From: Sporohalobacter salinus
Lineage (GTDB): Bacteria > Bacillota > Halanaerobiia > Halobacteroidales > Acetohalobiaceae
Length of the DNA stretch: 64,000 nucleotides
Direction of reading: 5' to 3'
Assembly (NCBI RefSeq): GCF_016908635.1
Contig: NZ_JAFBEG010000003.1
Location: 1 to 64,000 of the forward strand
A program made the translations under genes and the position numbers. The first letter of the stretch is position 1. Each line of letters begins with the position of its first letter. The notes below the pieces were generated by a model. That model did no database searches and was not told the DNA's origin. It was given only the letters and a program-made list of their open reading frames with translations. Below are positions 2,812-48,536 of the stretch, piece after piece.

Positions 2812-3719
2812 ATGAATAATAGTTTAATGAATAATCATTTTGTTGTTAAAGCAGTTAATAAAGTTATGAAAAAAGAAAGTAATGGAATGATTGACTGTTG
2901 GATGGCTCAGGATGTTGCCCTGGAAAGAGCTTCTACTGCTGGAGAAGTTGTAAAGATAATGGGAGATTTTATTGAAAAATATGGCTGGCATGATAATGTG
3001 GAAGCTATCAATGTAACTGATGATGATGAATTATGGATTGTTGAATTTTATGGTAGAGATATCTGGGCAGCAAAGAGAGTACCAGATGGACATTTCTTTG
3101 TAGCTGCTAGGAGAGCACGAATCGATATGTCGATGATGAAGATAATTATATGTGTTTACCCAATTTAATAGATTTTGCTGTTGAACAGGGATGGTGGTTT
3201 CCTGATTCAGGTAAAGAATTTAATCCAGCAAGAATTTATGCTCCAAATGATGCAGTCTATGTAACAAGACGTACTTGGAGAGCTTTTGATATTGTTGCTC
3301 CTTCTTTGAACTTAAATTCACATTAGAAAGATTTTACGTTTGTTGTAAAACCCGTTTGGCCAGTTATGGACGAATTACCAGATTTCTATCAAACAGGTTC
3401 GACATATAAAGACTTTAGAAGAAATTCTGGATGGTGGGTTAATATTTATGTCTATAGATCTTCTAAATTAAAGGCATTATATAAAGAGACTGATGCTATA
3501 CAAGAGAAGGTGGCTGAAATATACGAAGATGATCTAAAAACTGCTATTAATATGATTGATGAGTTTGCATATAATGCTGCTGTTTCTTGGCATGAGCAGT
3601 GGAAAAAGATCGGTGACCATTTATTTGGGAAGTATGCAATGGGTTACATAAATTTCCATACAATTGGGTATCCAGAATGGTGGAATGGCTTTATTGGTTA
3701 TGATAAAATAGAGAGGTAA
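2812..3719 (+). pseudogene. Broken C69-family dipeptidase (PepD-like)
   Basis: Three pieces of one peptidase family C69 protein are read in two frames. Piece 1 (2812 to about 3120) contains VEAINVTDDDELWIVEFYG and DIWAAKRVPDGHFF. A frameshift near 3120 moves the reading to piece 2 (about 3124-3327, with NPARIYAPNDAVYVTRRTWR), which ends at a TAG at 3325-3327. Piece 3 (from about 3366) has ELPDFYQTGSTYKDFRRNSG and WWVNIYVYRSSKL, the usual C-terminal part of the family. The N-terminal part carrying the catalytic cysteine is missing, and so is the segment between pieces 2 and 3. Intact C69 dipeptidases are about 450-550 residues. This is a decayed copy with no expected activity. A small conserved-looking C-terminal frame remains open only by chance of erosion. 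Confidence 0.85.
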
Positions 3720-4168: not shown

Positions 4169-4267
4169 TAATTATTTTTATGTGTTACTGAGATAGAAGG
4201 ATCAATTTGAAAATTAATAATTGATTTTTTGAATATAAATTTATTGAGAGAAAAAAGGAGGGATTCG

Positions 4268-5425
4268 GTGAACGTTAAAGAGAAAATTTTTGAGTTTATT
4301 GATTTTAATTTAGATAGATTTATTGAAGAGACTATTAAGATTCAGCAGATTTCTGCTCCAACATTTCAAGAAGAGAATAGAGCTAACTATATTAAAAATA
4401 GATTAGAATTATTAGGAGGAGATAAGGTTCAAATTGATGAAGTGGGCAATGTAATAAATACTTATACTGTAGATAAAGAGTTACCTACAATTATGATTAC
4501 TGCTCATCTAGATACTGTTTTTTCAGAAGAAGTAGATTTAGGAATAAATAGAGAAGAAAATAAAATTTCAGGGCCTGGACTTTGTGATAACAGTTTAGGA
4601 TTAAAAGGGTTATTGGTGATAGCAGAAATATTAGATGAATTTGAGCTAAAACTTGATTATAATTTAATGTTAACTGCTACAGTGGGAGAAGAAGGTAGAG
4701 GTAACTTAAAAGGAATGCAGCAGCTGATGAAAAGGTATCAGGATGGGATAGATGCAGTTATTGTATTAGAAGGTAATGGTTTAGGCAGGATTACTCATCA
4801 GGCAGTTGGTAGCAGACGTTGGAAAGTAGAAATTGAGGCTGAAGGAGGACATAGCTGGAATGATTTTGGTAATTCTAGTGCAGTTCATACTATGTCAAGA
4901 ATAGTTAGTACTTTAGCTGATTTTGATTTGCCTACTGATCCAAAGACAACATTTAATATTGGGAAAATAGTTGGAGGTCAGGCGGTGAATGCTATTGCAT
5001 CTGAAGCAGAAATGTTATTGGAAATTCGATCATTAAGTAAGGGGGCGTTAGCAGAGATAAGTCAAGAATTTAAAAGAATTATTCAGGATATTTGTCAACA
5101 AGACGAAGTTAAGGTTAAATTTGAATGTATAGGTAAGAGACCAGCAGGAGAATTAAGTAAAGAACATAAGTTGGTAAAATTATTAAAGAGGATTCATCAA
5201 AAATTAAATTTAAAATCTAAATTTAAGCCAGGAAGCACCGATGGTAATTTACCATTGGATTTAAATATTCCTGCTGTGACTATAGGATTAACTAAAGCTG
5301 AAAATTTACATTCAACAGAGGAATATATAGAAACAGAACCATTAAAGGCGGGATTAGAACAGTTAATTTTAGTAATTTTAGAGATTGAGAATTATTTAAA
5401 AAATAGGAGGCAAAAGGATGAGTGA
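4268..5425 (+). CDS. M20-family zinc metallopeptidase
   Basis: The cytoplasmic metallohydrolase is of the PepT/ArgE/CPG2 type and would cleave a small peptide or amidated amino acid. The metal and catalytic residues are visible: H and D in ITAHLDTVF (about residue 78), the bridging D in GPGLCDNSLG, the EE pair in ATVGEEGRG, and the late H in AENLHSTEEYIE. The dimerisation domain lies between them (GGHSWNDFGN). The GTG start at 4268 is chosen because AAAGGAGGG lies 5-6 bases upstream; an ATG 13 codons earlier has no site. The 3' end overlaps the symporter gene by 8 bases, so the two are co-translated. With the symporter and asparaginase nearby, a role in peptide or amino-acid catabolism is likely. 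The substrate is unknown. Confidence 0.85.
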   Translation: MNVKEKIFEFIDFNLDRFIEETIKIQQISAPTFQEENRANYIKNRLELLGGDKVQIDEVGNVINTYTVDKELPTIMITAHLDTVFSEEVDLGINREENKISGPGLCDNSLGLKGLLVIAEILDEFELKLDYNLMLTATVGEEGRGNLKGMQQLMKRYQDGIDAVIVLEGNGLGRITHQAVGSRRWKVEIEAEGGHSWNDFGNSSAVHTMSRIVSTLADFDLPTDPKTTFNIGKIVGGQAVNAIASEAEMLLEIRSLSKGALAEISQEFKRIIQDICQQDEVKVKFECIGKRPAGELSKEHKLVKLLKRIHQKLNLKSKFKPGSTDGNLPLDLNIPAVTIGLTKAENLHSTEEYIETEPLKAGLEQLILVILEIENYLKNRRQKDE

Positions 5426-6710
5426 GCAGAGATCTTTATGGGCTAAATATCGTTCGATTCCTTTAGTTTATCGGATAGGAGTTGCTTTTGTTTTAGGGTC
5501 TATACTTGGATTGATTTTTGGAGACACAATGACTAGGCTTCAGCCACTTGGTGATCTTTTTATAAGATTATTGAAAATGGTAGTAATTCCTATTGTATTC
5601 TTCACTTTAATTATGGGAATGAAACGCTTAACTCCATCAAAGCTAGGTAAAATTGGAGGGCAAACGGTTTTATTTTATGTAGTTACTACTGCAATTGCTA
5701 TTGTAATTGGATTGTTCATAGCTAATATGACAAGTCCTGGAGTTGGTTTAACATTAAAAACTCAAGGGGAAATTGCAGCTAAAGAAGCACCGAATATAAT
5801 GAAAGTTATTGTAGATATAGTTCCTAAGAATGTTGTTGGAGCTTTTGCAGATGGGAATGTGCTTCAGACCATATTTTTTGCTATTACTTTTGGAATAGCA
5901 CTTGCTGTACTTCAAGAAAATGGTTCGGAAAATATTCAAAAAGGTGCTGAGACGATATTTAATCTAGTAGAAACATGTGCAGAGGCTATGTTTAAAATTG
6001 TATGGGGAATTATGGAATATGGTGTGATTGGTATATTTGCCTTAATGGCTTCTGTGTTTGGGCAAACTGGTGTGAATGCTATTTTACCATTTGCTAAGTT
6101 AATAGGTTCATTAACATTAGCGGTAACTGTCCACATTATTTTAACTTATTTATTGGTGATTATAATTGGTTTTGTAGGTCAATCTCCATTAGCATTTCTT
6201 AGGGGCGTTAAAGATGCTATGTTGACTGCATTAAGTATTCGGTCTAGTAGTGGAACGCTTCCTGTTTCAATGTCTAATGCAGAAGATGATTTAATGATAG
6301 ATGAATCAGTATTTAGTTTTACTCTTCCATTAGGTGCTACTATTAATATGGATGGAACTGCTATGTATCAAGGTGTAGCTGCTATATTTGCTGCTAACCT
6401 TATAGGGCAAACTCTTACTATTGGTCAGCAAATGACAGTAGTACTTACTACTACATTAGCGAGTATAGGAACTGCTGGGGTTCCAGGGAGCGGATTGATT
6501 ATGCTTTCAATGGTGTTAACCCAACTTGGGCTGCCGCTTGAAGTAGTTGGATTTGTTGCTGGTATTGATCCTATATTGGACAGATTGCGTACTATGAATA
6601 ATGTTACCGGAGATCTTGCTGTAACTACTTTAGTTGCTAAATTAAATAATGCTATTGATTTCACTAAAGGAGTTTGGGTTTCTGAAGATAGCAAAAATAT
6701 TGTCGGCTAG
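5418..6710 (+). CDS. Dicarboxylate/amino acid:cation symporter (DAACS/SLC1 family)
   Basis: This membrane transporter of the GltP/DctA/GltT family has about eight helices plus re-entrant loops. Diagnostic motifs are SIRSSSGTLPVSMSN (hairpin 1), LPLGATINMDGTAMYQ (helix 7, NMDG) and ASIGTAGVPGSG (hairpin 2). Length 430 is normal. It would import aspartate, glutamate or C4-dicarboxylates with Na+ or H+. Its position between a peptidase and asparaginase/aspartase genes favours aspartate or fumarate/malate. The start ATG has GGAGG 8 bases upstream and overlaps the end of the M20 gene. The NhaC antiporter downstream may recycle the sodium. Confidence 0.92.
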   Translation: MSEQRSLWAKYRSIPLVYRIGVAFVLGSILGLIFGDTMTRLQPLGDLFIRLLKMVVIPIVFFTLIMGMKRLTPSKLGKIGGQTVLFYVVTTAIAIVIGLFIANMTSPGVGLTLKTQGEIAAKEAPNIMKVIVDIVPKNVVGAFADGNVLQTIFFAITFGIALAVLQENGSENIQKGAETIFNLVETCAEAMFKIVWGIMEYGVIGIFALMASVFGQTGVNAILPFAKLIGSLTLAVTVHIILTYLLVIIIGFVGQSPLAFLRGVKDAMLTALSIRSSSGTLPVSMSNAEDDLMIDESVFSFTLPLGATINMDGTAMYQGVAAIFAANLIGQTLTIGQQMTVVLTTTLASIGTAGVPGSGLIMLSMVLTQLGLPLEVVGFVAGIDPILDRLRTMNNVTGDLAVTTLVAKLNNAIDFTKGVWVSEDSKNIVG

Positions 6711-6822: not shown

Positions 6823-8229
6823 ATGGAAGAAACGAAAAAATTACCTTCAATGTGGAAAGTATTTCTAGTATTAGGCGGTTTTTTAGCACTAGCTTTTACA
6901 TTTACTAGTTTAGGAATTACAATTCATTTAGCTATATTTAGTGGATGGTTTTTAGCTATTGGTGTAGGTTTATCATTAGGTTATTCTTATCAAGAATTAG
7001 AGAATGCAATTACTGATGGCATTAATAATGGTATGAATGCAGTAATAATTCTTTTAGCAGTAGGGGCTTTAGTTGGAACTTGGATTTCAGGTGGAGTTGT
7101 TCCTAGTATAATTTATTATGGTTTAAAGATAATTCATCCATCTATATTTTTCTTGGCTACTTTAATTATTTGCACTCTTACTTCTCTTTCTACTGGTACT
7201 TCTTGGGGAGCAGCAGGAACTGCTGGTATTGCTATGATGGGTATAGGAGCTGGCTTAGGTGTACCAGATCCAATGACCGCAGGTGCAGTATTATCTGGAG
7301 TTTATTTTGGAGATAAGCTTTCTCCATTATCTGATAGTACAATTTTGTCTGCTTCTATGTCCGATGTTGATGTGATCGATCATGTAAAAGGTATGTTTCC
7401 AGCTTCTATAGTAGGTTATGCTATAACAGCTATAGGATTTACAATATTAGGTTTTAACGTTGGTGGTGGTTCTGCTGATTTAAGCAGAGTTAATAAAGTT
7501 ATGAATGCTATTGATAGTATGTTTAATGTTAATTTAATTTCTTTACTTCCATTAGTAATAGTTATAGCTTTGCTAATAATGGAGAAACCATCAATTCCAG
7601 TTATAACTTTTGGAGCTGTATTAGGTATTATTTGGGGAATAGTTTTTCAAGGATTAGAGCCTGTTAAAGCAATTGGAACAGCCTGGAGTCAAATTCCTAA
7701 AGATACAGGTATGAAGTTTATTGATAGTATTTTGAGTCGGGGCGGTATGCAGTCTATGCTCTGGTCTGTGGGAGTTATTTTATTTGGTTTAGGTTTTGGT
7801 GGATTATTAGATGAAATAGGTATTTTAGAGGCTATTGCTGAAAGAGTTGAGAAAGGAATTAATTCTGGAGGCTCTTTAACAATTACTACAATTATTGTTG
7901 GTTTTCTTGGTAACTTATTTGGTAGTGCAATGTATGTCTCATTAATTTTAACTCCAAAGATTATGGAGAAAAAATATGATGAATTAGGATATGACAGAAG
8001 AGTTCTTTCTCGAAATACTGAGTTTGGAGGTACTTTAACATCAGGAATGGTACCCTGGAGTGATAATGGAATTTATATGGCAGGGATATTAGGAGTATCG
8101 ACTCTTGATTATTTACCATATATGTGGTTATCATTTGCTTGTATTGGCGTATCAATTATTTATGGATTTACAGATACATTTATGTATAGAGCGGATGATG
8201 AGGCAACTGATGAAACACTGACAGTATAA
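6823..8229 (+). CDS. nhaC: Na+/H+ antiporter, NhaC family
   Basis: The polytopic membrane protein is 468 residues long, a usual length for NhaC. The conserved core is present: STGTSWGAAGTAGIAMMGIG, then GVYFGDKLSPLSDSTILS with the charged residues inside the membrane. It would exchange internal Na+ for external H+ or, as in several NhaC relatives, couple to organic acids (malate/lactate antiport). AAAGGAGG precedes the ATG. The gene follows a sodium-coupled symporter and precedes asparaginase by 106 bases. This fits either sodium recycling during amino-acid uptake in a saline habitat or substrate/product antiport. Confidence 0.85.
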   Translation: MEETKKLPSMWKVFLVLGGFLALAFTFTSLGITIHLAIFSGWFLAIGVGLSLGYSYQELENAITDGINNGMNAVIILLAVGALVGTWISGGVVPSIIYYGLKIIHPSIFFLATLIICTLTSLSTGTSWGAAGTAGIAMMGIGAGLGVPDPMTAGAVLSGVYFGDKLSPLSDSTILSASMSDVDVIDHVKGMFPASIVGYAITAIGFTILGFNVGGGSADLSRVNKVMNAIDSMFNVNLISLLPLVIVIALLIMEKPSIPVITFGAVLGIIWGIVFQGLEPVKAIGTAWSQIPKDTGMKFIDSILSRGGMQSMLWSVGVILFGLGFGGLLDEIGILEAIAERVEKGINSGGSLTITTIIVGFLGNLFGSAMYVSLILTPKIMEKKYDELGYDRRVLSRNTEFGGTLTSGMVPWSDNGIYMAGILGVSTLDYLPYMWLSFACIGVSIIYGFTDTFMYRADDEATDETLTV

Positions 8230-8335: not shown

Positions 8336-9376
8336 ATGAAAAAGATACTTTTTATTACAACAGGAGGCACTATTGCTTCCTCAGAAGGAGACAAAGGCTT
8401 AGAACCGGCTTTTGATGCTGAGGAATTATTGGCTCACATACCTGAGATTAGGGATCTTTGTGATATAAATGGCAAGTTAATTATGAATATAGATAGTACA
8501 AATATGAGGCCTACTTCAGTAAAAAAGATAGCTGAAACAGTTTTTGAAAATTATGAGGATTACGATGGATTTGTAGTAACTCATGGTACTGATACTATGG
8601 GATATACTTCTTCATTATTAACATATATGTTATCTAACATTAAGAAACCAGTTGTTGTTACAGGTTCTCAAGTTGCAATAGGTCAACCTTATACAGATGC
8701 CAAAAAGAATATTTCAGATGCTGTAAGATTTGCTCTTGAAGGGGTTCCAGGAATATTTGTAGCTTTCGATGGGAAAATAATTAATGGGACAAGGGCAATA
8801 AAAATGAGAAGTAAAAGCATGAGTGCTTTTGAGAGTATAAATAGGCCTTATGTAGCTTCTATTAAATTAGGTAAAATTACTTATAATGGAGATAGTAGAG
8901 GTAATAATTATAATGATAAATATGAAATAATGAATATTGATCCAAGTAAGCCTTTTAGGTTACGAACTGATTTATGTACAGATGTATGTGTGTTGAAACT
9001 TTATCCCGGAATTGATCTTAGTATTTTTGATTTCATAAAAGAAAATTATGAAGGATTAGTTATTGAAACCTTTGGACTTGGCGGTATTCCTAATTTAGAG
9101 GATTATGATATTGTGTCTAAAGTAAAAGAAATTATTGATGCTGGAGTTGCTGTTGCAGTAACAACACAGTGTGTAGAAGAAGGTGTCAATTTATGCGTTT
9201 ATGAAGTAGGGCAGGATTTAGCAGAACATAATAAAGTAATAGTTTCTGGTGATATGAATACTGAAGCAATAGTAGGAAAATTAATGTGGGCATTAGGCAA
9301 CTTTAATAATATGAATGACATTAAATGTTTTATGGAAACTCCTATGTTTGGGGATATGAGTATTGAAGAAGAATAA
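8336..9376 (+). CDS. ansA: L-asparaginase (type I-like)
   Basis: This enzyme hydrolyses L-asparagine to aspartate and ammonia. Both threonine active-site motifs are visible: TTGGTIASSEG at residues ~8-18 and VVTHGTDTMGYTSSLL at ~80-96, with the lysine of TGSQVAIGQPYTDAKKN further on. No signal peptide is seen, so it is cytoplasmic. Length 346 is typical. CGGAGGG lies just before the ATG. It precedes malic enzyme and aspartase, although a strong terminator separates them. The product aspartate is the substrate of aspartase encoded at 10969. Confidence 0.92.
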   Translation: MKKILFITTGGTIASSEGDKGLEPAFDAEELLAHIPEIRDLCDINGKLIMNIDSTNMRPTSVKKIAETVFENYEDYDGFVVTHGTDTMGYTSSLLTYMLSNIKKPVVVTGSQVAIGQPYTDAKKNISDAVRFALEGVPGIFVAFDGKIINGTRAIKMRSKSMSAFESINRPYVASIKLGKITYNGDSRGNNYNDKYEIMNIDPSKPFRLRTDLCTDVCVLKLYPGIDLSIFDFIKENYEGLVIETFGLGGIPNLEDYDIVSKVKEIIDAGVAVAVTTQCVEEGVNLCVYEVGQDLAEHNKVIVSGDMNTEAIVGKLMWALGNFNNMNDIKCFMETPMFGDMSIEEE

Positions 9377-9390
9377 ATAAAATAGTTTTT

Positions 9391-9430
9391 AAAATAAGCT
9401 TAGGGCTTAAGCCCTAAGCTTATTTTTTTA
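9391..9430 (+). terminator. Strong rho-independent terminator after asparaginase
   Basis: A perfect 16-base stem, AAAATAAGCTTAGGGC (9391-9406) with GCCCTAAGCTTATTTT (9411-9426) and a TTAA loop, is followed by TTTATTA. It closes the M20-symporter-nhaC-ansA group. The A-rich 5' arm and near symmetry make it potentially bidirectional. Confidence 0.92.
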
Positions 9431-9649
9431 TTATATTAGCAGATAAAGATAATAATAGTATGGCTTAAAAGTGGTAAAATGGGTGATGTAAAATAATAAT
9501 TGGGGATATTGGGGTTTTTAAGTAGTTTAAAGTAATCTTTTATTGACTATCTATTAATATATAAATTAATGGTGATTAATGCATGATATCAGTATGAAAT
9601 AAATGGTATATATTACATTTTGAGATGGGAAAGTTTTATTAGGTTATTT

Positions 9650-9665
9650 TGGTATGAATTATGCA
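9650..9665 (+). promoter_or_regulatory. Candidate sigma-54 (-24/-12) promoter before malic enzyme
   Basis: TGGTATGAATTATGCA matches the sigma-54 consensus TGGCACG-N4-TTGCA at most fixed positions. GG (9651-9652) and GC (9663-9664) are exactly ten bases apart. It lies about 50 bases before the malic enzyme start, in a 335-base gene-free interval (9377-9711) that otherwise holds only the asparaginase terminator and AT-rich sequence where an activator could bind. No clear inverted-repeat activator site was identified there. Confidence 0.55.
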
Positions 9666-9711
9666 ATAATAAAATAATAACTTAATTGGAAAAAATAAAG
9701 GAGGGGATGGC

Positions 9712-10932
9712 GTGAACTTAAAAGAAAGAGCATTGAAATTACACAAAGATAATCAGGGAAAATTAGAGGTGAAAACAAAAGTTGGAGTAGAAACAGAAGA
9801 TGATTTATCTTTAGCTTATTCTCCTGGAGTAGCTGAACCCTGTCTTGAGATTGAAAAGGATAGAGATAAGATATTTGATTATACAAATAAGTCCAATTTT
9901 GTAGCTGTTGTCAGTAATGGTAGTGCAGTATTAGGATTGGGGAATATCGGGAGTGAAGCATCTATGCCGGTAATGGAAGGTAAAGCAGTACTCTTTAAAG
10001 AGTTTGGCAAAGTAGATGCTTTACCAATCTGTCTCGATGAAGATGATCCTGATAAATTGATAAATACTATTAAACGTATGGTTCCAACATTTGGAGGAAT
10101 AAATTTAGAAGATATTAAGTCTCCAGAATGTTTTTATATTGAGAAACGTCTTAAAAAAGAAGTAGATATTCCAGTTTTTCATGATGACCAGCATGGTACG
10201 GCAATAATTACTCTGGCTGGGCTGGTAAATTCTCTAAAGTTAGTAGATAAAAGTTTTAAAGATATTAGAGTTATAATTAATGGTGCGGGAGCTGCTGGAG
10301 TAAGTATTACTAAATTATTATTGGCTGAAGGAGTAGAAGAAATTATAGCTCTAGATAGTAAAGGAGTTATTTATGAAGGCCGGGATAATTTAGATAAATC
10401 AAAGGAAGAATTAGCTAAGTTAACTAATCAAGATAATGAAAAGGGAAATCTTAAAGATGTAATTAAGGGTGCTGATGTGTTTATCGGTGTTTCTGTAGGA
10501 GAGGTATTAACTAAGGAAATGGTGAGTACTATGGCAAATGATCCTATTTTATTTCCGATGGCTAACCCTGTTCCTGAAATTTGGCCCGAAGATGCTTTAG
10601 AAGTAGGAGCAAAGGTAGTAGGTACTGGTCGTTCTGATTATCCTAATCAGGTTAATAATGTTATGGCATTTCCAGGTATTTTTCGAGGGGCACTAGATGT
10701 AAGAGCTAAAGATATAAATGAAAAAATGAAAGTAGCTGCTTCTTATGCAATAGCGGAACTTGTATCTAATGAAGAATTAGGTACTGATTATGTAATCCCC
10801 AAACCTTTTGATAGACGGGTAGGACCTCATGTAGCTGCAGCTGTAGCCAAGGCAGCGGTTGAAAGTGAGGTAGCTCGAGTTAATATTGATTATGAAACAG
10901 AATTGCAAAGAGCAAGAGAATTGATGGGTTAA
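9712..10932 (+). CDS. Malic enzyme (oxaloacetate-decarboxylating, short bacterial type)
   Basis: The enzyme oxidatively decarboxylates malate to pyruvate and CO2 with NAD(P)+. Visible motifs are the substrate region YSPGVAEPCLEI, the NGSAVLGLGNIG segment, the metal-binding VFHDDQHGTAIITLAGLVN, and the Rossmann GAGAAGVSITKLLL. Length 406 matches the short Firmicutes/archaeal type without the C-terminal phosphotransacetylase domain of MaeB. The GTG start has AAAGGAGGGG 6-7 bases upstream. Aspartase begins 36 bases after its stop. With the fumarase tail at the window start, this completes aspartate to pyruvate. Cofactor preference cannot be read reliably. Confidence 0.9.
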   Translation: MNLKERALKLHKDNQGKLEVKTKVGVETEDDLSLAYSPGVAEPCLEIEKDRDKIFDYTNKSNFVAVVSNGSAVLGLGNIGSEASMPVMEGKAVLFKEFGKVDALPICLDEDDPDKLINTIKRMVPTFGGINLEDIKSPECFYIEKRLKKEVDIPVFHDDQHGTAIITLAGLVNSLKLVDKSFKDIRVIINGAGAAGVSITKLLLAEGVEEIIALDSKGVIYEGRDNLDKSKEELAKLTNQDNEKGNLKDVIKGADVFIGVSVGEVLTKEMVSTMANDPILFPMANPVPEIWPEDALEVGAKVVGTGRSDYPNQVNNVMAFPGIFRGALDVRAKDINEKMKVAASYAIAELVSNEELGTDYVIPKPFDRRVGPHVAAAVAKAAVESEVARVNIDYETELQRARELMG

Positions 10933-10968
10933 GTGAGTGTAAAATTCTTTATGAGGAGGGGGTTACTG

Positions 10969-12384
10969 ATGTCGAGAATTGAAAAAGATTTTTTGGGAGA
11001 AATGGAGATTGATGATGAGGCATATTATGGAGTTCAAAGTAAGAGGGCTGCACAGAATTTTATGGTAACTGGAATTTCTGTATCACCAGAATTGATTCAT
11101 GCATTGGGAATAGTAAAGAAAGCAGCAGCTACAGTAAATATAAAATTAGGTTATCTTAATAAGAAAAAAGGTGAGGCAATTGTTCAGGCAGCTGAAGAGA
11201 TAAGAGAAGGAAAATTTAATGAAGAGGTTATACTGGATTCAATTCAGGGTGGAGCAGGAACTTCTATTAATATGAATATTAATGAAATAATTGCTAATAG
11301 GGCATTAGAAATTTTAGGCTATGATAAGGGCGATTATGCTCATGTACATCCTAATACTGATGTGAATATGGCTCAGTCTACTAATGATGTAATACCAACT
11401 GCAGTCAGAATAGCTACTATTAAGAAAATTGATGGATTAATTGAAGCTGCTAAATTATTAAAGAAAAGGTTAGCAGAGAAAGAGGAAGAATTTGATGATA
11501 TATTAAAGCTGGGAAGGACTCAGCTTCAGGATGCTGTTCCCATTAGGTTAGGACAGGAGTTTGGAGCTTATCGAAAGACAGTTGATCGTTTTCTTAATCG
11601 AATTAAAGAAATTAGAAATGATTTAACAGAAATTAATTTAGGAGCGACGGCTGTGGGAACTGGATTAAATGCTGATCCTAAGTATATTGAATTGGCTATT
11701 AAAGAATTAAGAAAGAATACAGGTTTGAAATTAGAATCAACTGATAATTTAGTTGATGGTACTCAAAATACTGATGTTTTTGTTGAGATATCTGGGCGAT
11801 TAAAGACATTTGCTAGCAGCTTATCTAAAATTGCTAATGATCTTAGGTTGTTAGACTCTGGACCACAGGCAGGACTGAATGAAATTAATCTTCCAGCAGT
11901 ACAGCCAGGGTCATCAATTATGCCTGGAAAAGTTAATCCTGTAATACCGGAAATGGTAAACCAGGCTTCCTTTCAGGTATTAGGCAATGATCAGACCATT
12001 ACTTTGGCTTCGGAAGCAGGTCAATTAGAATTAAATGTAATGATGCCGGTTATGCTCTTTAACGTATTACAGTCAATTAATATTTTAACTAATGTGAATA
12101 GGATCTTTGCTGAGAAGTGTATTAAGGATATTACAGTCAATAGACAAAGATGTAATGAATTTGTTGAACGCAGTGTAGGAATAGTTACAGCACTTAATCC
12201 TCATATTGGTTATACTAAAGCTTGTGAAGTTGCCAAAAGATCTTTAAGGGAAGATAAATCTATTAAAGAAATTATTTTAGAAGAAGAGATTATGAGTGAA
12301 GAGAAATTATCACAGATATTAAATCCAATTGAAATGACCGAGCCAGGAATTGCAGGTGAACAATTATTGCCTAAGGAGGCATAA
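10969..12384 (+). CDS. aspA: Aspartate ammonia-lyase (aspartase)
   Basis: The enzyme deaminates L-aspartate to fumarate and ammonia. It belongs to the fumarase/aspartase superfamily, with signature GSSIMPGKVNPVIPEM at about residues 305-320 and the TQSTNDV-type segment seen as MAQSTNDVIPTA. Overall pattern (IQGGAGTSINMN, GATAVGTGLNADP, NDLRLLDSGPQAGL, LNPYEMT-like LNPIEMTEPGIAG) is closer to aspartases of Bacillus than to class II fumarase. The ATG at 10969 is preferred because AGGAGGGGG lies 7 bases upstream; an upstream GTG at 10933 has no site. It is in one transcription unit with malic enzyme. Confidence 0.88.
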   Translation: MSRIEKDFLGEMEIDDEAYYGVQSKRAAQNFMVTGISVSPELIHALGIVKKAAATVNIKLGYLNKKKGEAIVQAAEEIREGKFNEEVILDSIQGGAGTSINMNINEIIANRALEILGYDKGDYAHVHPNTDVNMAQSTNDVIPTAVRIATIKKIDGLIEAAKLLKKRLAEKEEEFDDILKLGRTQLQDAVPIRLGQEFGAYRKTVDRFLNRIKEIRNDLTEINLGATAVGTGLNADPKYIELAIKELRKNTGLKLESTDNLVDGTQNTDVFVEISGRLKTFASSLSKIANDLRLLDSGPQAGLNEINLPAVQPGSSIMPGKVNPVIPEMVNQASFQVLGNDQTITLASEAGQLELNVMMPVMLFNVLQSINILTNVNRIFAEKCIKDITVNRQRCNEFVERSVGIVTALNPHIGYTKACEVAKRSLREDKSIKEIILEEEIMSEEKLSQILNPIEMTEPGIAGEQLLPKEA

Positions 12385-12406: not shown

Positions 12407-12481
12407 ATGAAATTTTTATGTCTAGAATGTAATCGAGAATATATGATTGGCTATTTACCCGTTCTAGGTAGATTAAACTAG
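12407..12481 (+). CDS. Possible 24-residue peptide with a CxxC motif
   Basis: A tiny frame reads MKFLCLECNREYMIGYLPVL then GRLN and stop. It has AGGAGG (12391-12396) 10 bases before the ATG, as strong a site as many real genes here. The CLEC pair could bind metal. Its last eight codons lie inside the stem of the terminator at 12458, so translation would disturb the hairpin. It may be a leader-like peptide, a remnant of a longer zinc-ribbon protein, or chance. Function unknown. Confidence 0.3.
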   Translation: MKFLCLECNREYMIGYLPVLGRLN

Positions 12482-12492
12482 AACGGGTTTTC
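12458..12492 (+). terminator. Terminator after the malic enzyme-aspartase unit
   Basis: CCCGTTCTAG (12458-12467) pairs perfectly with CTAGAACGGG (12478-12487) across a 10-base loop, followed by TTTTCC. The T-run is short. Confidence 0.8.
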
Positions 12493-47903: not shown

Positions 47904-48536
47904 ATGCAGGAAGATGGAGTTAATTTTAGATGGAAAGAAGGAAACTTAATTATTGAGTTAGATGATGAGTTAGGGTTTCAGCGTTTAATTAAGAATTTAA
48001 AACAAAAAGTTGTTCAAGCTGAGGGCTTTTTTATAAATTCTAAGCTTAAAATTAAGCTTAATAATCGTAAGTTGGATAAAGAAGAAAAGGATCAATTAAT
48101 TGGAATATTTGATTCATTAAAAGGGTTATCAGTTATAGAGATAGTTAGGGATAGCATTTTAGATAAAGCAGAAGAGATTGATGGAGATTCTGAACTGCCT
48201 ACTTTATTGTTGGATCGAACACTTCGTTCTGGTCAATCAATTACATATGAAGGTAATGTAGTTATCAAAGGAGATGTTAATCCGGGGGCAGAAGTAGTAG
48301 CTAAAGGAGATATATTAGTGATGGGAGCTTTTCGTGGTATAGGACATGCAGGTGCTGGCGGAAGAGAAGAAGCAACAATAGTTGCTTTTCGATTGCAGCC
48401 GTTGCAGTTAAGAATTGCGAACAAAATTTCTAGAGCTCCTGATGATGAGTCTAATTATTCTGTAGATTATTCTGATAGGCCAGAAATTGCACTAGTTAAA
48501 GGTGGTACTATCTTAATTAAAAAATTAAAGGATTAA
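47904..48536 (+). CDS. minC: Septum site-determining protein MinC
   Basis: The FtsZ inhibitor blocks division away from midcell. The N-terminal half (~1-100) is the FtsZ-antagonist domain. The C-terminal half is the beta-helix MinC_C (~105-205) with TLRSGQSITYEGNVVIKGDV, NPGAEVVAKGDILVMGAFRG and AGAGGREEATIVAFRLQP. Length is 210. AGGAGG precedes the ATG by about 10 bases. It is followed by minD and minE. Confidence 0.94.
   Translation: MQEDGVNFRWKEGNLIIELDDELGFQRLIKNLKQKVVQAEGFFINSKLKIKLNNRKLDKEEKDQLIGIFDSLKGLSVIEIVRDSILDKAEEIDGDSELPTLLLDRTLRSGQSITYEGNVVIKGDVNPGAEVVAKGDILVMGAFRGIGHAGAGGREEATIVAFRLQPLQLRIANKISRAPDDESNYSVDYSDRPEIALVKGGTILIKKLKD

Follow-up and report, generated by a model that had tools for sequence, protein, structure and literature searches.

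Overall, we consider it quite probable that the 16-mer at 9650–9665 of the window (the whole stretch of 64,000 nucleotides that was analyzed) serves as a working sigma-54 promoter of a malic enzyme–aspartase unit, and that it is driven by the activator encoded at 221–2269. That the site itself is real is well supported by sequence comparison. From gene linkage and shared motifs we infer that this activator acts on this promoter, along with the DNA binding, inducer and transcription that the circuit would entail. The features of the region are as follows.

1–153, + strand: fumarase beta subunit, C-terminal end, cut by the contig start (86% over 44 aa to a G001 protein)
221–2269, + strand: sigma-54 activator (predicted two-lobed N-terminal domain, PAS, AAA+ with GAFTGA, winged helix)
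4189–4204, + strand: degraded sigma-54 site before the M20 peptidase gene, TGAGATAGAAGGATCA, aligned to G001 TGGTATGAAAATTGCA
4229–5425, + strand: M20 peptidase
5418–6710, + strand: dicarboxylate/glutamate symporter (SDF family)
6823–8229, + strand: NhaC-type antiporter
8336–9376, + strand: asparaginase
9391–9426, + strand: intrinsic terminator 3′ of the asparaginase gene (-23.3 kcal/mol, z -4.7)
9470–9514, + strand: candidate activator binding block, ATGGGTGAT at 9479–9487 and GGGATATTGGG at 9503–9513
9650–9665, + strand: predicted sigma-54 (-24/-12) promoter, 16-mer TGGTATGAATTATGCA, GG-N10-GC, start predicted near 9676
9712–10932, + strand: malic enzyme, first gene of the unit
10933–12384, + strand: aspartase (aspartate ammonia-lyase), above the NF008909 cut-off
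12457–12488, + strand: hairpin then TTTT, 3′ of aspartase, likely terminator (-18.2 kcal/mol, z -5.0)

In terms of transcription units, terminator-like hairpins lie on both sides of the malic enzyme–aspartase pair, which therefore probably needs a promoter of its own; the hairpin at 12457–12488 is absent from the terminator scan listing because its loop of 10 exceeds the limit of that scan. The likelier start of aspartase is the ATG at 10969. The initial annotation had proposed a sigma-54 promoter with GG-N10-GC spacing ahead of malic enzyme, and both points are borne out: the spacing is present in the 16-mer, and the GTG of malic enzyme (9712) lies 62 bases 3′ of the first base of the site. 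Its placement of an activator gene beside fumarase is also correct, as the tail of the fumarase beta subunit immediately precedes 221–2269, which ends 7.4 kb upstream. A peptidase C69 gene at 2812–3719 is seemingly in pieces, with an ORF at 2812–3168 matching the middle of PF03577 and the later ORF of this broken region giving no match.

With respect to the site itself, 9650–9665 departs from the classical consensus at three positions, and 38 matches of that quality occur in the window against 33.6 expected, so that by classical consensus alone it is unremarkable. Since this consensus is uninformative, the question becomes what form sigma-54 sites take in this organism. A matrix of classical sigma-54 frequencies leaves 9650 tied for third in the window. 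The pattern TGGYAYGNNNNWTGCW, which was written around the site itself, has one match in the window against 0.09 expected, and genome-wide has eight matches against one when read backwards. A local matrix was built from 16 training sites of these bacteria, hand-picked from pattern matches and with all malic-enzyme sites left out. With this matrix 9650 ranks second among 127,970 window positions, at a score for which 40 first-order random sequences give an expectation of 0.025 positions per 64 kb. The rank check suggested earlier, made in the window with the local matrix and across the genome with pattern counts, thus favors the site, which fits a sigma-54 promoter form resembling TGGYAY...TGCW, with N10 between GG and GC. 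The first-ranked position, 48335, has an equal score and lies inside a 210-codon ORF; the next same-strand ORF begins 225 bases downstream of this strong sigma-54-like site (48335–48350).

For genome-wide counts we used the pattern TGGHAYRNNNNWTGCA. It was built on nine candidate sites from these genomes, the malic enzyme ones among them, and its counts are therefore partly circular for those. This pattern has 23 matches in the window's genome (G000), and summed over eight genomes, the window's included, it has 105 against 7 when read backwards. The backwards-read control is biased low because it contains CG itself, and spacer-length controls were therefore added. In the window's genome there are 23 sites with the N4 spacer against 11 for N2, N3, N5 and N6 combined (Poisson 4e-14), and the corresponding figures for the four other spacers are 16 against 9 in G001 (Poisson 3e-9), 13 against 19 in G003 and 11 against 17 in G005. 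Correctly spaced sites are also more often intergenic, at 13/23 in G000 and 13/16 in G001 against 3/11 and 1/9 of the controls (pooled, 26/39 against 4/20, p 9e-4). Ten intergenic sites of the window's genome remain once those of the window's activator family are set aside, and at five of these the next gene fits amino-acid use (methionine gamma-lyase type, 2,4-diaminopentanoate dehydrogenase, serine dehydratase-like, sodium:alanine symporter and NhaC); at the other five it encodes an activator, a dehydrogenase, UPF0261, a PTS IID component and an SLH protein. The absence of rpoN would have spoken against the annotation, and the gene is present (PF04552, 1.2e-65), as a single copy in the window's genome with an open frame of 463 aa and no stops. 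The window's genome has ten clear sigma-54 activators and three weak AAA+ matches.

The site also recurs before malic enzyme in two other genomes, as a conservation check proposed with the original claim would have it. Specifically, in G001, the only other genome of the genus compared and probably A. arabaticum, TGGTATGGAATATGCA (L053:16761) lies 66 bases before a malic enzyme 81% identical to that of the window, and its differences from the window's site are confined to the free spacer. In G003, which belongs to another genus of the same family, the site is TGGCATACTATATGCA (L078:6498), 73 bases ahead of a malic enzyme with 56% identity; aspartase and then both fumarase subunits come next. 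An ortholog of the window's activator is found within about 5 kb of the site in both genomes. A survey of malic enzyme covered 41 genomes and thirty loci, one of which was cut by a contig end and left out, and a site within 250 bases of the best-match malic enzyme was present at 2 of the 29 loci, those of the window and of G001; the G003 copy is a second, weaker malic enzyme match that was reached via the activator. The arrangement was seen in these three genomes only.

The activator at 221–2269 combines an AAA+ domain carrying the GAFTGA loop with a C-terminal HTH_12 match (residues 619–674), and the C-terminus is predicted to form a winged helix (Z about 9–11 to MarR, DtxR and CggR types); no match to a Fis-type helix is listed for this protein. 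The structure model of the whole activator is poor (mean pLDDT 52.6), so we relied on its two ends only and modelled the N-terminal domain again by itself (pLDDT 91.4). The predicted domain superimposes on the PrpR structure 2pju over 164 of 180 residues (Z 7.4, rmsd 4.6), a likeness to PrpR-type activators that is tied with many other two-lobed proteins and is accompanied by no Pfam sequence match to PrpR_N. Structure searches place the domain among two-lobed alpha/beta proteins (PrpR, racemases and periplasmic binding proteins), and since none of these is a clear winner no ligand is named. The predicted fold could be that of a small-molecule binding domain like the one in PrpR, with many two-lobed proteins fitting equally well. 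A sequence search of solved structures gave nothing convincing.

Activator copies 61–81% identical were found in 6 of 13 genomes of the order, and matches at E 1e-150 in 14 of 59 genomes of the class, the same six among them. A contig search with the activator gave no matches; with an alignment it gave six loci, two of them Natroniella copies and four partial or weak. The window's genome itself holds a second close copy, a paralog on contig C19 that is 65% identical and has the same domain plan. Among the distant activators, those of G023, G016, G055, G054 (both contigs) and G058 have no neighbor matching the labelled proteins, and neighbors include fumarase subunits in G044 and a symporter in G041.

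Upstream of promoters linked to this family we found half-sites of the TGGGTTAT type, often in tandem (period 8) or inverted. In the window, a candidate enhancer block with TGGGT repeats lies ~140–180 bases before the 9650 site, with candidate half-sites at -171, -149 and -141, and this block (9470–9514) is well kept in G001. The half-sites of the window are variants, with ATGGGTGAT reaching 11.6 bits and the others staying under 8. A 9-base matrix was trained on five glutamate-mutase and fumarase promoters and used with a threshold of 10 bits. By this matrix half-sites precede 11 of 13 untrained activator-family promoters (the window's included) as against 3 of 18 other sigma-54 promoters from G000 and G001 (p 2.6e-4), a comparison in which the 13 lack independence, since they include near relatives (G000/G001 and G006/G009), and the training half-sites were chosen after viewing nine upstream regions, four of which are among the 13 (both malic enzyme promoters of the genus, the G001 M20 promoter and the G003 malic enzyme promoter). 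The two misses are the promoter of G001's activator and G023. Only promoters with a located sigma-54-like site enter this count; L214, L216, L217, L218 and the G003 glutamate mutase operon, where none was located, stand outside it, as does the region before the C19 activator, which has repeats and no sigma-54-like site.

Among generic upstream regions, with none dropped, 3 of 62 have a half-site, namely two at Natroniella glutamate mutase operons, where a sigma-54-like site is also present, and one ahead of the C19 activator. The longer motif GGGNTAWYGGG occurs 7 times in the window's genome, including a match at 9503 and another ahead of the C19 fumarase, against 4 backwards, and 11 times in G001 against 6 backwards, 4 of these 11 lying before promoters of the activator family. 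The matches listed for the other genomes searched are not at activator-family promoters, and genome-wide enrichment of this motif is not clear. Sigma-54-like sites at L211:5780, L212:10113 and L215:9118 also have TGGGTTA-type repeats upstream; they lie near 42–51%-identical activators in other families, and the genes that follow them do not resemble the labelled ones. A preference for these repeats may be older than the target genes.

In the proposed circuit, RpoN–RNA polymerase would wait at 9650–9665 as a closed complex. The 221–2269 activator, as the putative cognate regulator, would bind the TGGGT-type repeats at ~9470–9514 through its winged helix, sense an intracellular ligand via its two-lobed N-terminal domain, its PAS domain or both, and open the complex by ATP hydrolysis via the GAFTGA loop. 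Asparaginase, aspartase, fumarase and malic enzyme together form a route from asparagine to pyruvate, and the circuit would make fermentation of asparagine and aspartate to pyruvate by these four enzymes inducible. The initial annotation had placed C4-dicarboxylate catabolism under a sigma-54 circuit. The circuit is supported by the recurrence of the site, rpoN, the GAFTGA loop and the half-sites, whereas the pathway is now read as asparagine/aspartate fermentation.

The promoter could instead be driven mainly by another activator, such as the C19 paralog or one of the other eight. The number of clear activators in the genome makes room for this, as do the domain plan that the C19 paralog shares, the similar repeats at its promoters and the variant half-sites at the 9650 promoter. 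We nonetheless assign this alternative a low, if appreciable, probability: G001 and G003 each have an ortholog of the window's activator near malic enzyme–aspartase, G003 without any other close copy, and window-type and Glm-linked activators form separate clades. Less probable still is that the -24/-12 site is real but minor, with a sigma-70 promoter giving most of the expression. Basal expression is common for central metabolism, and 9370–9720 contains five weak sigma-70-like matches, three of them on the other strand; against these stand 3.0 in shuffled sequence, and none scores above 9/12. G001 also retains the repeat block and the fixed bases of the sigma-54 site, an argument that is weak because it retains other stretches of the region too. 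A chance match in AT-rich intergenic DNA, in keeping with the classical consensus count at three mismatches, is very improbable given 0.025 positions expected at that score in random sequence and matching sites at a similar distance in two other genomes.

Returning to control of the unit by the 221–2269 activator, the best reading of these comparisons is that the putative asparagine/aspartate circuit is related to one for glutamate (methylaspartate) fermentation. A copy of the activator adjoins a glutamate mutase operon in G000, G001, G003, G005, G006, G009 and G019. Each of these operons contains glmS, glmE, methylaspartate ammonia-lyase, an AtuA-like gene and DUF4387; glmL is missing only from those of G006 and G009. 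A sigma-54-like site lies upstream of six of the seven; none was found upstream of the G003 operon. Acetohalobium has two close activator copies. The Glm-linked one (contig C19; G001 523347) has the glutamate mutase operon as a neighbor, together with a fumarase that carries a sigma-54 site. The window copy lies near the M20 peptidase, the transporters, asparaginase and malic enzyme–aspartase. G003 has one activator, situated between the glutamate mutase operon and M20, asparaginase, malic enzyme, aspartase and fumarase; its asparaginase differs from that of the window (32% identical). In the tree, window-type activators are separate from the Glm-linked clade, and the G003 protein has no firm position.

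We tentatively suggest, at somewhat less than even likelihood, that an ancestral regulator of glutamate plus aspartate fermentation split in two in Acetohalobium. On this reading the Glm-linked copy kept TGGGTTAW and the window copy changed its repeats, and two parallel sigma-54 circuits would thereby separate glutamate from aspartate fermentation. The repeats at the malic enzyme and M20 promoters of the window copy are ATGGGTGAT, ATGGGTGAA, ATGGGTAAT and TTGGGGGAT, which are few sites. G003, with one activator and the repeat TTGGGTTAT, may picture the undivided state. If the circuit is real, one close activator in one genus and two in another offer a compact test of how paralog regulons divide and DNA preference changes.

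The surroundings of the window's activator can be followed a little beyond the contig start. In G001, valS precedes the activator, and the end of contig C23 carries a 92%-identical valS and the start of a fumarase, so that C23 probably abuts the window. No match to TGG-N10-GCW occurs in the last 700 bases of C23, before the fumarase copy that is probably beside the activator, and one bare GG-N10-GC lies just after valS; the other fumarase copy, on C19, has a sigma-54 site. Two fumarase alpha genes begin in this genome, at the C19 end and the C23 start, and each is truncated by its contig end; the two ends have their last 95 bases in common, and the contigs contain no full fumarase alpha gene. 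The promoter before the activator that is present in G001 was not found in the window's genome, and this, like the degraded site before the M20 peptidase, counts against the proposed circuit. Further sigma-54-like sites of the family lie before fumarase, a transporter and the G001 activator (L075:16291, L076:13624, L079:9857 and L053:9754), and the G001 activator could possibly regulate itself via its own upstream site.

With respect to known systems, DctB/DctD with RpoN provides sigma-54 control of C4-dicarboxylate uptake in Proteobacteria, as a two-component system acting on the transporter DctA; sigma-54 and C4-dicarboxylates are what it shares with the proposed circuit. Histidine breakdown commonly yields glutamate. 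The genome paper on Acetohalobium (PMC3035264) gives betaine, lactate, pyruvate and histidine as organic substrates, with aspartate and glutamate absent from that list, which speaks against the proposed circuit. Close parallels come from Nie, Dong and Yang 2019 (PMC6615313), who described 39 sigma-54 groups in Clostridiales, among them groups for ornithine, proline, leucine, cysteine and methionine catabolism. Their search consensus was TTGGCATNNNNNTTGCT, binding sites lay mostly 100–250 bases upstream, and each activator had one to few target operons. The likeness lies in one-component activators of the PAS type (OrdR, PrdR, LeuR, CdsR and MdeR), whose genes adjoin operons for amino-acid fermentation. 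The window shares this layout, with its activator gene linked to an operon of that kind that has a sigma-54 site and, by sequence only, a motif upstream. The difference is that 335 of the 490 activators there have a Fis-type helix, whereas the window's family has a winged helix. Compared by target genes, no group in Table 1 of that paper includes aspartase, malic enzyme, fumarase or glutamate mutase, and its main text does not mention glutamate mutase, aspartate, malic, methylaspartate, fumarase or Halanaerobi. The main text of a 2025 cross-phylum survey (PMC12316311) likewise lacks glutamate mutase, aspartase, malic enzyme, methylaspartate, aspartate ammonia and Halanaerobi. In Pseudomonas, AauR/AauS and RpoN control glutamate and aspartate use, with putative sites at glutaminase-asparaginase and transporter genes (PMC7962211); this is a two-component system with the site TTCGG-N4-CCGAA, and the word aspartase is absent from the main text of that paper. 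The kind of switch is thus known, and in titles and abstract openings of the best-ranked open-access papers we found no description of such a circuit in this lineage. If true, the circuit would mean that sigma-54 governs amino-acid fermentation in the halophilic Halanaerobiales as well as in Clostridiales, where this is known, and that such control includes aspartate and glutamate (methylaspartate) branches.

In all seven glutamate mutase operons, methylaspartate ammonia-lyase is followed by an AtuA-like gene and a DUF4387 gene. These pairs are located as follows.

L075:12003–13711: AtuA-like and DUF4387 pair
L076:9414–11118: AtuA-like and DUF4387 pair
L078:11196–12894: AtuA-like and DUF4387 pair
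L079:12182–14065: AtuA-like and DUF4387 pair
L080:6066–7839: AtuA-like and DUF4387 pair
L081:8695–10679: AtuA-like and DUF4387 pair
L210:11582–13308: AtuA-like and DUF4387 pair

CitF (citrate/citramalate lyase alpha) has no match in any of the six genomes searched, G019 not being among them, and no mention of DUF4387 was found in the open-access papers searched. As a guess, the AtuA-like and DUF4387 proteins may handle mesaconate or citramalate.
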